A DNA stretch of 64,000 bases, taken from positions 33,113 to 97,112 of the forward strand of contig NZ_JAQUVZ010000013.1 of assembly GCF_028693135.1 (NCBI RefSeq), in the 5' to 3' direction. This DNA is from Methanosarcina sp. (GTDB taxonomy: Archaea > Halobacteriota > Methanosarcinia > Methanosarcinales > Methanosarcinaceae). The notes beneath the pieces were generated by a model. It did no database searches. It worked only from the letters and a program-made list of their open reading frames with translations, and was not told the DNA's origin. The stretch's first letter is position 1; each line of letters starts with the position of its first letter. Shown piece after piece: positions 5,199 through 50,430 of this stretch. Both the position numbers and the translations under genes were made by a program.

Positions 5199-5544
5199 CT
5201 TAATTCTACCTCAAGCCTCATGGTTAGTTATCTTATTGAGAGGCATTCTAAAGTACAACGACAGAGAATATAAAGCTAAGTGAAGCGGGGTGAAAGTATT
5301 AAACAAGCAGGAAGCGGCTGCCCCTGAAAGAGCTCTTCCCTGGTGAATTGCAAAGCCCGAAAAAATACTTGCTTCACACCCTCAACCCAATTTTGAGGAA
5401 CGGATCTATCCTTTTTAAGACAGTCCCACTTCTCCTCAAAGAAAATTCACTTGTATTCCCCTCATCTCTGTTTCGGATTAGCCTCAAATTTTATTATATC
5501 TTGTTTGTTAATTGGTTATGTAACCGGATAGTTGTTTTAATTAT

Positions 5545-5662
5545 ACAATTATTCATCAGTAGACCTGTTATTTTAGATTACCAATAACCATCCAATAATC
5601 TGTCCACAAGGCACTTTGTAATAAGAAGTTTTTGTAGTGTTGATCGAACTATTCATAACACC
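5545..5662 (-). pseudogene. Decayed tnpB 3' end (IS200/IS605 family)
   Basis: The minus strand matches the last part of the intact tnpB at 22483-23748. The DNA stretch TCCACAAGGCA followed by ATAAGAA or TAGGAAA and GTTGAT is shared in register over about 90 bases, including the part around the stop codon. Translated, it gives NSSINTT followed by CGQIIGW, against NSAINIM and WIGYL in the intact protein, then in-frame stops. Only about 40 codons remain and there is no start. Confidence 0.7.
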
Positions 5663-21302: not shown

Positions 21303-22421
21303 GTGCGACCGATCTCACAAAGAGTGAACGCTAAGAAAATTCACGAGAAAAATACCGAGCTCGGGAAATCCACATCCGAACTTCTTATCCTGAAGGCCGA
21401 AGGATATCCCCTGAGCGGCATGATGGAAGAATATCCTGTTATTGAAAACAGGGATGTTTTTGAATTCTATGCACGGGAACAGTGGAACGGGAATGTTGCC
21501 CGCAAAGGAGATTATCTCTTTGACAAGAGAATGTTCCCTGACTTTGCATACCGCATTATCGATGTGGAACCTGCAGAATCCATAATAGGAAACTCAACAT
21601 CCATTATCGTAACTGAAGAGGAAAATGGAATATCTCCCTCTGAAGAGATAAAAAGTGATGTTAAATTTGAAGATGTGATAGGGCAGGAACTTGCAAAACA
21701 GAAGTGCAGGCTGATCGAGCGCTTTCTGGAAGAGCCCGAACGTTTCGGGAAATGGGCACCAAGAAACATTCTGTTCTTTGGCCCCTCAGGAACTGGAAAA
21801 ACCATGCTTGCAAAAGCCCTTGCAAGCAAGACAGATGTGCCGATCATTCCAGTCAAGGCTACCCAGCTAATAGGAGAATATGTCGGGGACGGAGCCCGTC
21901 AGATCCACCAGCTCTATGACAAGGCAGAAGAGATGTCCCCCTGTATAATTTTCATTGACGAACTTGATGCCATTGCCCTGGACAGGCGATTTCAGGAGCT
22001 CAGAGGAGACGTAAGCGAGATCGTAAATGCCCTTCTTACAGAAATGGACGGGATAGTTGAACGCGACGGAGTCTGTACCATCTGTTCAACAAACCGTGTC
22101 AATTCTCTGGACTCTGCTGTGAGAAGCAGGTTCGAAGAAGAGATTGAGTTTGTCCTTCCTGAGGAAGACGAAATTGTTCATATACTGGAATCAAATGTGA
22201 AGACTTTCCCTCTGAAGGCAGAGGAATTTGATTTCCAGACACTTGCAAAGAAAGCTAAAGGGCTTTCAGGCAGGGATATTGTAGAAAAAATCCTTAAGAC
22301 CGCCCTTCATCAAGCAATCATCGAAGATAGGGAAATTGTCAGCGGTAAAGACTTTGAAAAAGCCCTTGCAAGATTGGGAAGGAAAGATTTTGCTCAGGAC
22401 CCAACCCATCTGTATGTATAA
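21303..22421 (+). CDS. AAA+ ATPase with unknown N-terminal domain
   Basis: The 372-residue protein starts at GTG. Residues 1-115 are not recognised (ELLILKAEGYPLSGMMEEYP ...). The AAA domain follows (120-300) with Walker A GPSGTGKT near 160, Walker B IIFIDELDAIA, sensor 1 STNRVNSLD and arginine finger in SRFEEEIEF; a helical lid ends near 365. It resembles the COG1223 group of archaeal AAA ATPases related to Cdc48 and proteasome regulators, which remodel or unfold protein substrates. No partner gene adjoins it; a transposon zone begins immediately downstream. Confidence 0.83.
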   Translation: MRPISQRVNAKKIHEKNTELGKSTSELLILKAEGYPLSGMMEEYPVIENRDVFEFYAREQWNGNVARKGDYLFDKRMFPDFAYRIIDVEPAESIIGNSTSIIVTEEENGISPSEEIKSDVKFEDVIGQELAKQKCRLIERFLEEPERFGKWAPRNILFFGPSGTGKTMLAKALASKTDVPIIPVKATQLIGEYVGDGARQIHQLYDKAEEMSPCIIFIDELDAIALDRRFQELRGDVSEIVNALLTEMDGIVERDGVCTICSTNRVNSLDSAVRSRFEEEIEFVLPEEDEIVHILESNVKTFPLKAEEFDFQTLAKKAKGLSGRDIVEKILKTALHQAIIEDREIVSGKDFEKALARLGRKDFAQDPTHLYV

Positions 22422-22422
22422 A

Positions 22423-22482
22423 CGTGAACTACCCCTCCCTGTCAGGCTAGCGCCTGCTGAGGAAGGGGCTTCCTTCGAGTAT
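22423..22482 (-). ncRNA. Right end of the TnpB element, probable omega-RNA 3' hairpins
   Basis: On the minus strand, directly after the tnpB stop codon, GGAAG-CCC-CTTCC is followed by the hairpin CAGGC-GCTA-GCCTG and GGGAGGGG, which can pair with CCCCTTCCTC, before the border-like GTAGTTCACG. In IS200/IS605 elements the guide RNA of TnpB is made from this end, with its 3' guide read from the flanking DNA. Very similar ends occur at 25165 and 49795. Confidence 0.6.
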
Positions 22483-23748
22483 TTACTTCATTTGAAAATC
22501 AGATTCTAAGAATCTAATTCTCATCGGTAAACCTGTTTGTCGAAGATTATCTACAAATTGTAGATAGCCTATCCACAAGGCATTCTGTGATAGGAAACGT
22601 ACCATGATGTTGATAGCACTATTTCTATCCCTATCAATTACATTTCCACAATCGCATTCCATAGTTCGCTTCCATAAAGGCATATCGTGCCGTTTTCCAC
22701 ATAGGTAGCATTCTTTGGAAGTATAGCTTTCATCAATTCTTATTACTCTTTTACCTCTGAGCTCTGCTTTATAGGTCAGGAATTCGATGAAGCGAGATAA
22801 ATAACCCTGATTTTGAGTTGATCTATTTCTGGATCTTATCCTCTTAGTTTTCTTCTGCTTTTCCCCATTGATTATTTTGGGTTGAGCCATTTTCTTAACT
22901 TTAAGATCTCCCACAATAATTGTATTGGCTCTGGTATTTTCTATCATTTTCCTGGATAGTTTATGCTGGAAATCCTTCAGCTGATTGGATTTTTTAGTTT
23001 CCATCACCCGATAATTTTTATGTAGTTTAAGGTATTTCCTGCTGTTTTTTATACAGTGATCTTTTTTTGATTTTATACTATCCATTTTCTTTTGCCAATA
23101 TTTATCAGGTCTGGGAGTTTTGACTTCGTGGATTTTTCCTTTGAGATTGATACAGGTTACTATTTTGGTTATGCCTGCATCAATCGCCTGATAACATCCG
23201 TTGTCAGTATACACTTTGGGAAAAACATCATATATTACGGAAAGGTAAAAGTCTCCTCTGCCTTTGTAAGGATCATCATTGTAGATCTCTACCTGTCTTA
23301 CATTTTCTAATTTGAGGTCAATTTCAAACTCAAGAGACGTTTTATTGACAGAGTGAGCAAATTTAATGTTTTCATTGTTAATTTTATATCCACTCTGATT
23401 ATAACATAACGTCATGAAATATTTGCTACTTCGGAACTTAGGAGGTCTTGCCTTCAGGTCTCCGTTTTTCCTGAGTGCAAAAAAGGACTTGTAATTAGCA
23501 TCAAGTTTTTTAAGTACACCCTGGAGAACTTTTGAATAAACCACCTTATATTCAGGATTATTTTCCTTGAATTCAGGCAATTTGTTCTGCTGTTCTATAT
23601 ACCCTACACTACGTTGTTCATTACGCCATGCGTTTTTTCTATCAGCCAGAGCAAGATTATAGATACATCTACATTTATTGGATAATTCCCAGAGAACATT
23701 AACCTGTTCATCTGTAGGATATATCTTAATCTTTTTTGTTAGCTGCAT
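22483..23748 (-). CDS. tnpB: TnpB, RNA-guided nuclease of an IS200/IS605-family element, rearranged RuvC site
   Basis: The 421-residue protein is full length and uninterrupted. The helical N-terminus begins QLTKKIKIYPTDEQ. RuvC-I is AIDAG with Asp190; RuvC-III is NVIDRDRNSAIN with Asp372; the zinc ribbon uses Cys347, 350, 365 and 367 (CYLCG ... CDCG). The RuvC-II motif, normally EDL, reads VGDLKVKKM with Gly280. A glutamate occurs at residue 340 in RIDESYTSK, the place where Fanzor-like and a subset of TnpB proteins carry a relocated catalytic glutamate. It therefore looks like an active nuclease of that subset. No tnpA adjoins it; a tnpA copy lies at 50056. Confidence 0.92.
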   Translation of the reverse strand: MQLTKKIKIYPTDEQVNVLWELSNKCRCIYNLALADRKNAWRNEQRSVGYIEQQNKLPEFKENNPEYKVVYSKVLQGVLKKLDANYKSFFALRKNGDLKARPPKFRSSKYFMTLCYNQSGYKINNENIKFAHSVNKTSLEFEIDLKLENVRQVEIYNDDPYKGRGDFYLSVIYDVFPKVYTDNGCYQAIDAGITKIVTCINLKGKIHEVKTPRPDKYWQKKMDSIKSKKDHCIKNSRKYLKLHKNYRVMETKKSNQLKDFQHKLSRKMIENTRANTIIVGDLKVKKMAQPKIINGEKQKKTKRIRSRNRSTQNQGYLSRFIEFLTYKAELRGKRVIRIDESYTSKECYLCGKRHDMPLWKRTMECDCGNVIDRDRNSAINIMVRFLSQNALWIGYLQFVDNLRQTGLPMRIRFLESDFQMK

Positions 23749-23868
23749 GGTTACCCCGACTTTCCATATATTTTTTCAAAGAGTCAACTGGCATAGAATA
23801 TAATATCAATAAAAAGATGAAACTATGAATATATGTATTTAACTAATCACGATGAATATTAATGGGGA

Positions 23869-23936
23869 AGTTGACGGCTTTCATCCCCCACCTGTCGCTT
23901 CGCTCCGAGGAAGGGGACTTCCCGCCTTCTCGTTAA
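23869..23936 (-). repeat. TnpB-element end-type hairpin (orphan or left end)
   Basis: The minus strand reads GGCGGGAAGTCCCCTTCCTC, then GGAGCGAAGCGACAGG, then GTGGGGG, and ends GCCGTCAACTTC. The first block is shared with the tnpB right end and with 49795. The terminal GTCAACTTC matches the GAAGTTGAC that begins the right border of the tnpA element at 50435. Confidence 0.6.
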
Positions 23937-24235
23937 AAGAGAAAGAACATACAAGAGATAGTGCCTTTTAATCCATTTTCTATGAGATATTTTCAGGCAC
24001 CTCTCTTATGAATCATTTTGTATGTGTCCCTTTACTTTTGACTGCTCTTATAATTTTTCCTTATAGATTAATTTTCCAGTCAATTGAAACTTTATTTTCA
24101 GGCTTTTGAGTTCATAAGAAGCTTTAATAATTATAACACAATAAAAATTTATTTCAGTATATATTTTTTACTCATTTACATATGTACCTGATATTTGTAT
24201 ATTTGGGGAATTATCCACATTGATTTGTAGAATCG

Positions 24236-24819: not shown

Positions 24820-25164
24820 CTACTGCACTGATACAGAATACAAAGAACAAAATATGTACAACTGGATAGGATATAACAAACTACTCTTTTAGAATATATT
24901 TTCGGCAGAGAACTTGTTTATTACTTAATATTTTACTGACTGTGTTTTATCACCTATTTAGTATACATATCTTAATTAAAAGTAATAATCTCTATAAAAC
25001 TGTTAGAGAAAATGTATTTAGAAACTGTTGTCACGATTCCATATAATTTGTATTCGACAGCAAATCAAAGAATGTGAGTATTATTAATGATGGGGGTTTT
25101 GAAACTAATTTCATAACCTCGAATGTTCAAGGGGTTTGCATATATCCCAAATGTAACAATAAAA

Positions 25165-25236
25165 CGGGAAGTTCCCTTCCTCAAAAATCCGAGTCATCAG
25201 GTTAAGAGTTCAGGGAGGAGTAGTTCACGAAATTTG
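25165..25236 (+). repeat. Orphan TnpB-element right end
   Basis: GGGAAGTTCCCTTCCTC is followed after a variable hairpin region by AGGGAGGAGTAGTTCACG, matching both ends of the tnpB right end at 22423-22482 but in the opposite orientation. No tnpB sequence remains to its left. Confidence 0.6.
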
Positions 25237-48675: not shown

Positions 48676-49790
48676 AGGACATGAGAAGCTCTGGCTTCTA
48701 CCAGTCAAACGTTGTTTTTGACCAGTTACTGAACATAGGATACTGATCTTCTGGTCAATACTTCCTGTTTTAATTAATCATGGCCTTTAGCCAGGTCAAC
48801 TCCTCTGAAAGAGTTTTTCATTCACCTGTTATTGAATTAATGAGTTGACATTCTGGGCTTATGTGACCCTGTTATAAAAGATTTTTGGTATTTTGGCAAA
48901 TAAATTTAATAAGTGTGCCTCACAATTAGGTTTAATTATAATTGTTTCGGGCTTTTGAATCCATGAATAAACAGGATATTAAGGGAATTATTGCGTGAAT
49001 TAAAAGGATAAAATTTATAATTATAAGAGATTTTCAAGTTTTACATGCCTGTTTTTTTATTTGGACGAAGTTCAGGTACATACATAGTTTCCCATTTTCA
49101 TCCTTCGATTATCATCCTTAATAATTTTAGGCAAATTTATTCATTGATACAAATATAAAAAAGTTGAGTTTGTAAAAAATTGTCCACGGTTTTGCCATTT
49201 ATTGACATTTACATGTTACTATATGCTATTTTTTCATTATGATTTTGAAACGTTAATTATCTTCTGGAATCGTCAAAATTCAGATCAATTATTAGCATAT
49301 AATGGCCGCCATTAATAAATTACAATTGATTTTTAAAAGTCTTATGTGGAGTAAATTAATAATATTACTGTGGAACTTATGCAGTTATAAATTTAGAATG
49401 TGGCGTATTTCATTACTTCGTTAATGTTACAATTAATTTTATTTATATCCAGGTTGAATTATATCTAAATCCCTGCCACTTTATGAATCTTCAATTCAAG
49501 TGATTCCATTTTTAATTAATTATAGCTCCAGTCTTAGAAAATCTCTCAAGGGAAACATTACACACGCCCTTTAAGACCTTTCTTTCTGCCAGCGACCTTT
49601 CCATATCATAAAACGGTTTTATTCTTCTGTTTTATTCCTTAATTATCCATGACCTGTTGCTCGGATACTCTCATTTTGATTCTTATCCATATTTCTCATA
49701 TATATAGTACATTTGTTATCCGGCACAGAATCTTTGTCTTTGGTAACATGGTTTTGAGCGTAAATGCTTACATTTAACTCAGGGGGTGCA
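48676..49790. other. Long AT-rich region without genes
   Basis: No ORF or RNA gene is recognised. It contains the hairpin near 48690 and a perfect inverted repeat TAATGGC-C-GCCATTA at 49300-49314, which may be an operator. Sequence is otherwise of low complexity and rich in stops. Confidence 0.5.
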
Positions 49791-49794
49791 GAGG

Positions 49795-49860
49795 CTCAGC
49801 AGGAAGTCCCCTTCCTCGGAGAGCTTCTGCCCGACAGAGGGGAGCAGTTCACGAATCAAT
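49795..49860 (+). repeat. Orphan TnpB-element right end
   Basis: CAGGAAGTCCCCTTCCTCGG, then GAGCTTCTGCCCGACAG, AGGGGAGCAGTTCACG matches the right end of the tnpB element (GGAAG/CTTCC hairpin, then the G-rich block and AGTTCACG border). It is in plus orientation, although the tnpB relic beside it is on the minus strand, so it derives from another insertion. Confidence 0.6.
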
Positions 49861-50055: not shown

Positions 50056-50430
50056 TTGATAATGTATCAGATAATCTTTGTTTGCAAGTATCGGAAAAAC
50101 GTACAGGAACCAATTAGCGAAGAGCTTAAACAAATTAGATCTGATATTTCAAAAGAATCGAACTTTGAAATTCTCGAAATGGAAACTGACAAAGATCATA
50201 TTCATTTCCTGATTAAGAGTGAGCCAAAAGTTAGTGTTCTGTCAATTGTCAGAAAATTGAAACAAGAATCTACTAACAGGTTGTGGAAAGTGCAAAAAGA
50301 GTATCTGGAGAAGTATTTGAAGAAGTATTATTGGGGTGAAAATACGTTATGGAGTGAGGGGTATTTTGCGTCTACTATCGGAAAAGTTAGTAAAGAACCT
50401 GCCGAATATTATATACGGAATCAGGGTTGA
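50056..50430 (+). CDS. tnpA: IS200-type Y1 transposase (TnpA), N-terminus possibly truncated
   Basis: The 124-residue protein has the HUH motif DKDHIHFLI, the N-terminal strand MYQIIFVCKYRKNV and the catalytic tyrosine helix IGKVSKEPAEYYIRNQ. It would cut and join single-stranded element ends. The similar residues NHRKFLI lie upstream in the same frame, back to a stop at 50014, but without ATG, GTG or TTG; the listed start is TTG 50056, with ATG 50062 next, so the protein lacks about ten residues of the usual N-terminus or uses a non-canonical start. The C-terminal hairpin border follows at 50435. Confidence 0.85.
   Translation: MIMYQIIFVCKYRKNVQEPISEELKQIRSDISKESNFEILEMETDKDHIHFLIKSEPKVSVLSIVRKLKQESTNRLWKVQKEYLEKYLKKYYWGENTLWSEGYFASTIGKVSKEPAEYYIRNQG

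Follow-up and report, generated by a model that had tools for sequence, protein, structure and literature searches.

A TnpB with a relocated RuvC-II glutamate in a tnpA-less IS200/IS605-type element of Methanosarcina, and a guide RNA predicted from the 3' end of its gene

The tnpB locus and its insertion site

A reading frame of 421 aa on the minus strand (22483..23748) of a 64,000-nucleotide stretch of Methanosarcina DNA (the window) was identified as a TnpB gene by Pfam and NCBIfam profile matches, a residue check and alignment. A first-pass annotation had already placed a full-length TnpB here, without its strand, and had rightly taken the host for an archaeon. The gene lies in a 1,509-bp element of the tnpA-less IS200/IS605 type (22424..23932, minus strand), recognised from a 94% identical copy elsewhere and from empty sites. 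The borders were taken from alignment with that sister copy on contig C3 (G000:C3:24539-26049; L026, L222), which sits at a TTTTAAC site, has a different guide and carries a broken frame. The flanking host gene encodes an AAA ATPase (21303..22421, plus strand), and the element ends 2 bp past its stop codon. The left end carries a hairpin (GAAGTCCCC...GGTGGGGGATGAA; 23880..23921, minus strand) that is conserved among copies; the copies share GAAGTC...GATGAA as left-end hairpin and ...GTAGTTCAC as right end, and their flanks diverge outside.

Directly outside the left end lies TTTAA (23933..23937, minus strand), the predicted target-adjacent motif (TAM). Of 49 distinct matches to the left-end motif, 39 have TTAAC no more than 45 nt ahead of it, against a background of 4.5% of 45-mers, a count favoured by the search, in which one with TTAAC was preferred among several left-end motifs. 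A T comes before TTAAC in 34 of these 39, and TTTTAC stands in two of the ten exceptions; in 47 of 98 loci the search did not find the left-end motif. Because two empty-site comparisons fit better with the C at 23932 inside the element, the TAM is predicted to be TTTAA, and TTTAAC was rejected as the target motif. At the empty L002 site, relatives G011, G008, G001 and G020 join TTAA straight to the right flank. L048 and L050, which are empty at the site of the element described here, agree in length with the prediction that leaves the C out, L051 falls one base short of this and L049 carries extra bases. The element is absent from the 170 nt that follow the AAA ATPase gene in all ten relatives read, of 29 with the gene.

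At the family level, the hallmarks of IS200/IS605 elements are present: Y1 TnpA beside tnpB, subterminal hairpins and a one-sided target motif. In 27 of 107 loci TnpB has a Y1 TnpA gene directly upstream, a count in which at least four places are represented twice. There is no Y1 TnpA in the element itself, and none of the three Y1 matches in the genome is beside it. One Y1 TnpA gene in the window (50056-50430, plus strand) lies 200 bp beyond a 75-bp solo mini element (49778-49852, plus strand) that follows TTTAA and ends GCAGTTCAC; solo elements of about 75 bp like this one are present elsewhere in the genome. Scans for bacterial-type signals gave 9 promoter-like sites (6.3 +/- 2.4 in shuffles) and one terminator-like site (1.3 in shuffles).

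The TnpB protein

The protein scores 187 bits on NF040570, the IS200/IS605 TnpB profile, with a curated cut-off of 100, and three Pfam domains exceed their cut-offs; the annotation from both Pfam and NCBIfam is that of an RNA-guided TnpB. The proposed catalytic residues are D190 (in AIDAG), E340 (in RIDESYTSK) and D374, and the zinc ribbon (C347/C350/C365/C367) has the pattern CxxC...CxC. At the canonical RuvC-II glutamate position stands Gly280 (in IIVGDLKVKK), and E340 precedes the first zinc cysteine by six residues, the position published as "Ealt". In an alignment of the query with the 120 listed of 1,223 homologs found (set A1 is 67 of these 120), D190, G280 and E340 are each present in 121 of 121 proteins. 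Across 27 loci of the own genome and genus, E340 is kept in 26/26 covered copies and G280 in 27/27, and across 80 further loci on named contigs the counts are 79/79 covered and 79/80, with one Ser. A glutamate at the canonical place was found at none of these 107 loci (27 Gly; 79 Gly and one Ser).

These results bear out the first-pass annotation in its reading of Gly280 and in the retention of D190 and the four zinc cysteines. Its choice of D372 as the RuvC-III aspartate gives way to D374, which lies opposite D361 of ISDra2 TnpB, the second D of DRD, in a phmmer alignment; the ISDra2 triad is given as D191/E278/D361 in PMC10097598. D374 is present in 120 of the 121 aligned proteins, with one gap, and D372 in 118. 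The glutamate in DESYTSK was correctly picked out, but its ISDra2 partner in the phmmer alignment is a Pro (in VSPYFPSS), not an arginine following an aspartate, and the longer span relative to ISDra2 amounts to 14 residues rather than 15 (67 from G280 to C347, 53 from E278 to C331). Because phmmer misplaces the EDL region, the equivalence of G280 and E278 was drawn from the motif (IIVGDLKVKKM against IIGTEHLKPDNM) and a MAFFT alignment.

The gene is intact and appears functional, judging from the invariance of E340 and a dN/dS of about 0.11 relative to the now broken sister copy. In an AlphaFold model (pLDDT 85.1, pTM only 0.66), E340 directly follows strand 334-339, G280 lies within strand 276-281 and D374 opens helix 373-388. 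The solved folds that match the model best are TnpBs, with superposition rmsd above 7.

TldRs are TnpB derivatives that have lost the catalytic triad and occupy fixed gene contexts. A similarly dead TnpB, kept as an RNA-guided DNA-binding regulator, would fit the replacement of the canonical glutamate by G280 in every aligned protein. However, the triad is not lost here, as the alternative glutamate, both aspartates (D190 and D374) and the zinc cysteines are retained, and copies occur at many different sites with mobile-element ends, unlike a fixed host regulator. We therefore regard a TldR-like role as unlikely. Because the gene is intact and has an invariant glutamate just before the zinc finger, its product is instead likely to be a working RNA-guided DNA cutter.

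Predicted guide RNA

The predicted omegaRNA scaffold (22424..22590, minus strand) overlaps codons 387-421 and the right end, and has four helices with covariation. Hairpin A (GCCT/AGGC, loop TGTGGAT; 22567..22581) covers codons 390-394 and hairpin B (TATCTACA/TGTAGATA; 22546..22566) codons 395-401, with changes on both sides in 8 of its 8 pairs. Helix C joins codons 402-403 (5' arm CTTCGA, 22540..22545) to the non-coding right end (3' arm TCGAAG, 22473..22478), and is followed by the right-end hairpin D (GAAGCCCCTTCC...GGGAGGGGTAGTTC; 22426..22472), all on the minus strand. Sequence conservation among copies stops at GTTCAC, and the predicted guide GTTTATACATACAGATGGGT (22404..22423, minus strand) is host DNA from the end of the AAA ATPase gene, its length of 20 nt being an assumption from known TnpBs.

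Covariation was assessed in 24 of 32 non-redundant scaffolds (set A3), the other eight being Asgard sequences with different hairpin lengths; the 32 were drawn from 73 reading frames, of which 48 matched anchor patterns that demand part of helix C and so favour that helix. Pairing holds in 94.8% of cells, with changes on both sides in 19 of 30 pairs, and none of 500 shuffles reached as high. Structures slid along the same scaffolds were only 34-46% paired. Helix C changes in step between the reading frame and the right end (CTTCGA/TCGAAG, CTGCGA/TCGCAG, CTACGA/TCGTAG, CATCGA/TCGATG); in a table of 47 rows there is one mismatch (L121) and one wobble (L132), and the pattern took the wrong stretch in L123 and L131. 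Hairpin D alone, in 45 sequences (set A2; 45 of 46 non-redundant ends, one with an N having been dropped, from 74 found by motif), is 92.2% paired, with a count of pairs changed on both sides that 114 of the 500 shuffles also reached.

In each of the 24 scaffolds, the loop of hairpin A (TGTGGAC/T) and the terminal GTTCAC are complementary. This is complementarity and not covariation, because the bases hardly vary, and the pairing competes with the three outer pairs of D. One IS607 TnpB has been described as requiring a pseudoknot. The rate of identical codons at conserved residues also peaks over codons 389-405, at 0.83 in the genus set and 0.71 in a wider set, compared with 0.54 and 0.42 in the body of TnpB. 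Rfam 15 gave no match for 22200-24200 at E values up to 1. The guide-RNA model R1 scores 142 bits at the own scaffold, which was among those used to train it; next to canonical TnpBs in the same genome its scores are 27-31 bits. Weak matches at 25065-25228 (plus strand, 20 bits) and 5507-5621 (minus strand, 22 bits) are probably decayed element remnants.

Codons 324-342 (about 22723-22779, minus strand), a stretch that spans E340, are under a synonymous constraint that equals that of the guide-RNA part, with identical-codon rates of 0.82 in the genus set and 0.61 in the wider set. Many family members have a partial hairpin there (ACCTAYAA/TTRTAGGT, codons 325-332), and no archaeal TATA was seen by eye in this copy within codons 324-342. 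As the TnpB match starts at residue 352 in eleven mini elements of genome G010, this signal is not among what these eleven keep; it is perhaps a cis element of the mRNA.

The scaffold signal might be nothing but protein coding plus a right-end hairpin recognised by TnpA, with no functional guide RNA. TnpA recognises right-end hairpins and works through guide and cleavage sequences, for which GGAAG and GTTCAC could serve here. However, helices A and B lie inside the reading frame, C links it to the right end, and all of them covary; A-C are moreover still paired in TnpB-less copies with early in-frame stops (see below). This explanation is quite improbable, and a guide RNA made from the 3' end of the gene is preferred.

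TnpB-less mini elements

Scaffolds are also found without a full TnpB. In 13 TnpB-less copies from several genomes (set A5; 13 of 26 model matches), all of which have an in-frame stop by codon 17 of the former frame, 97.9% of the cells of helices A-C are nevertheless paired, and six pairs have changes on both sides, which 3 of 500 shuffles reach. Hairpin A is missing from L220; in L221 helix C is incomplete, as is the complementarity of the loop of A. Two of the 13 are in the own genome (C3:27723-27899 and C3:111062-111238), the first of them about 1.7 kb beyond the sister copy. The kept pairing fits the use of guides in trans, although the copies are related and the conservation is partly due to recent origin.

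In G010, 23 loci score over 100 bits. Four are at TnpBs of this family, none of them complete and stop-free, and the 19 that remain, each of them read, lack a full TnpB and carry 19 different guides. As G010 has no complete TnpB of this family, it argues against use in trans there. G008 has two complete open copies and 14 loci over 100 bits, six of which are at TnpB matches; the remaining eight, all read, have no full TnpB, five of them lacking any TnpB match. The model matches read in G016 and G017 are at fragmentary matches to this TnpB.

A tentative extension, which we hold to be possible rather than probable, is that in Methanosarcina a dispersed set of guide-RNA elements has the relocated-glutamate TnpB as its common nuclease. 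Mini elements without TnpB, dozens of them with a complete, covarying scaffold and different guides, would then form a decentralised natural guide array that lets one or two intact TnpBs watch over many insertion sites in trans. GTTCAC would have two roles, in DNA as the TnpA end and in RNA as the partner of the hairpin A loop in a pseudoknot.

Distribution

Among the 120 listed of 1,223 homologs, the closest named ones are from Methanosarcina, and the family was found in 9 of 30 genus genomes (E <= 1e-80). Named loci (the best 80 of 175) come from other methanogens, Methanoperedens, Thermoplasmata, DPANN and Asgard archaea, with three labelled bacterial (L127, L140, L178). The same genome also carries TnpBs with the canonical glutamate, mostly of the VETLNIKGM type, as well as a third kind in which the glutamate is relocated but zinc cysteines are absent (ESHTSKCSFLDNEP). 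L010-L013 and L015-L017 of this genome make up a second multi-copy TnpB type, which has a relocated glutamate (EESHTSK), lacks zinc cysteines and carries DPG or DLG at RuvC-I; in this typing L003 and L004 were in the wrong frame, and L014 and L019 gave no frame.

Proposed mechanism

Taken together, the locus probably encodes an active RNA-guided DNA nuclease, an intact TnpB whose RuvC-II glutamate would be E340 instead of the residue at the position of G280, and whose guide RNA is predicted from the gene's own 3' end. The metal ions would be bound by D190, E340 and D374. As scaffold, the complex would keep the transcript's 3' part (22590-22424), with about 20 nt past GTTCAC as the guide. It would then find TTTAA followed by the guide sequence, as present at the empty site, and cut there using D190/E340/D374; alleles without the element, once cut, could be repaired from an allele that carries it. 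The element itself would be spared, because TTCAC and not TTTAA precedes its guide. In the genome, TTNANGTTTATACATACAG has a mismatch-free match at that locus only, and one other place differs by one base; in the relative L048, this guide region is preceded by TTCAG rather than TTTAA. To transpose, the element would depend on a Y1 TnpA provided in trans. Cleavage by the Methanosarcina TnpB is likely, and we infer that guides may be used, and may act in trans.

Comparison with known systems

Relocation of the RuvC-II glutamate is already published for Fanzors, Ealt TnpBs and RII-r clades, and the TnpB described here is an archaeal member; to this the present analysis adds its predicted RNA, a predicted target motif and mini elements that carry the scaffold. 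ISDra2 TnpB (8h1j, 8exa, 8bf8) has the canonical E278 where the Methanosarcina protein has G280, and its TAM is given as TTGAT (PMC10278001), compared with the predicted TTTAA. The Ealt TnpBs with a non-DPG RuvC-I described in PMC10711439, and the RII-r3 and RII-r5 groups of PMC10278001, have their glutamate six residues before the zinc finger, as here, with none at the canonical place in the present protein, and the TnpB domain order is common to all. The pattern published for non-DPG Ealt proteins in PMC10711439 fits 3 of the 120 homologs, and 118 once CxC is allowed in the zinc ribbon.

Kinship with Fanzors was also considered. In mimivirus Fanzor2 (9b0l), the Glu of VNEYLTTKTC lies opposite E340 in a phmmer alignment, both proteins have G-x-L at the old site with its Gly, and Foldseek gives an E value of 3.1e-15 to 9b0l, as might be expected of a pro-Fanzor belonging to the Fanzor lineage itself. 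Fanzors have DPG, Fanzor2 accompanies IS607 elements (PMC10711439, PMC3627910), and the DPG/IS607 Ealt clade is described as the origin of Fanzors (PMC10711439). The TnpB here has DAG, and its relatives DLG, DAG or DIG, with DPG at no more than one of 80 loci (one Pro at 191); relatives carry Y1 transposases, not IS607, and the structural match to ISDra2 is better than that to 9b0l. Membership of the Fanzor lineage is very improbable, and was rejected, the DPG pattern fitting none of the 120 listed homologs and the transposases found in relatives, in a search for Y1, being Y1. A RuvC-core tree (25 sequences, 157 columns) has 35-65% support at key nodes, too low to say whether the protein groups with Fanzors or to tell single from repeated relocation of the glutamate. 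By its residues and neighbours, this TnpB sits with the Ealt group that has non-DPG RuvC-I and IS200/IS605 Y1 transposases. The earlier assignment to relocated-glutamate TnpBs is thus upheld, but the subset is not the DPG/IS607 clade behind Fanzors.

Nucleases with a relocated glutamate include the eukaryotic Fanzors; on the prokaryotic side, the survey in PMC10278001 reports a single active RII-r5 ortholog. The predicted guide RNA, motif and sites make activity, the need for E340 and guide use by mini elements directly testable. PATEs retain their element ends without a nuclease gene, like the mini elements here. The same is described for SpuFz1 ghost elements (PMC10432273). The Methanosarcina mini elements differ from both in that they also keep the internal scaffold helices, with changes that restore pairing.
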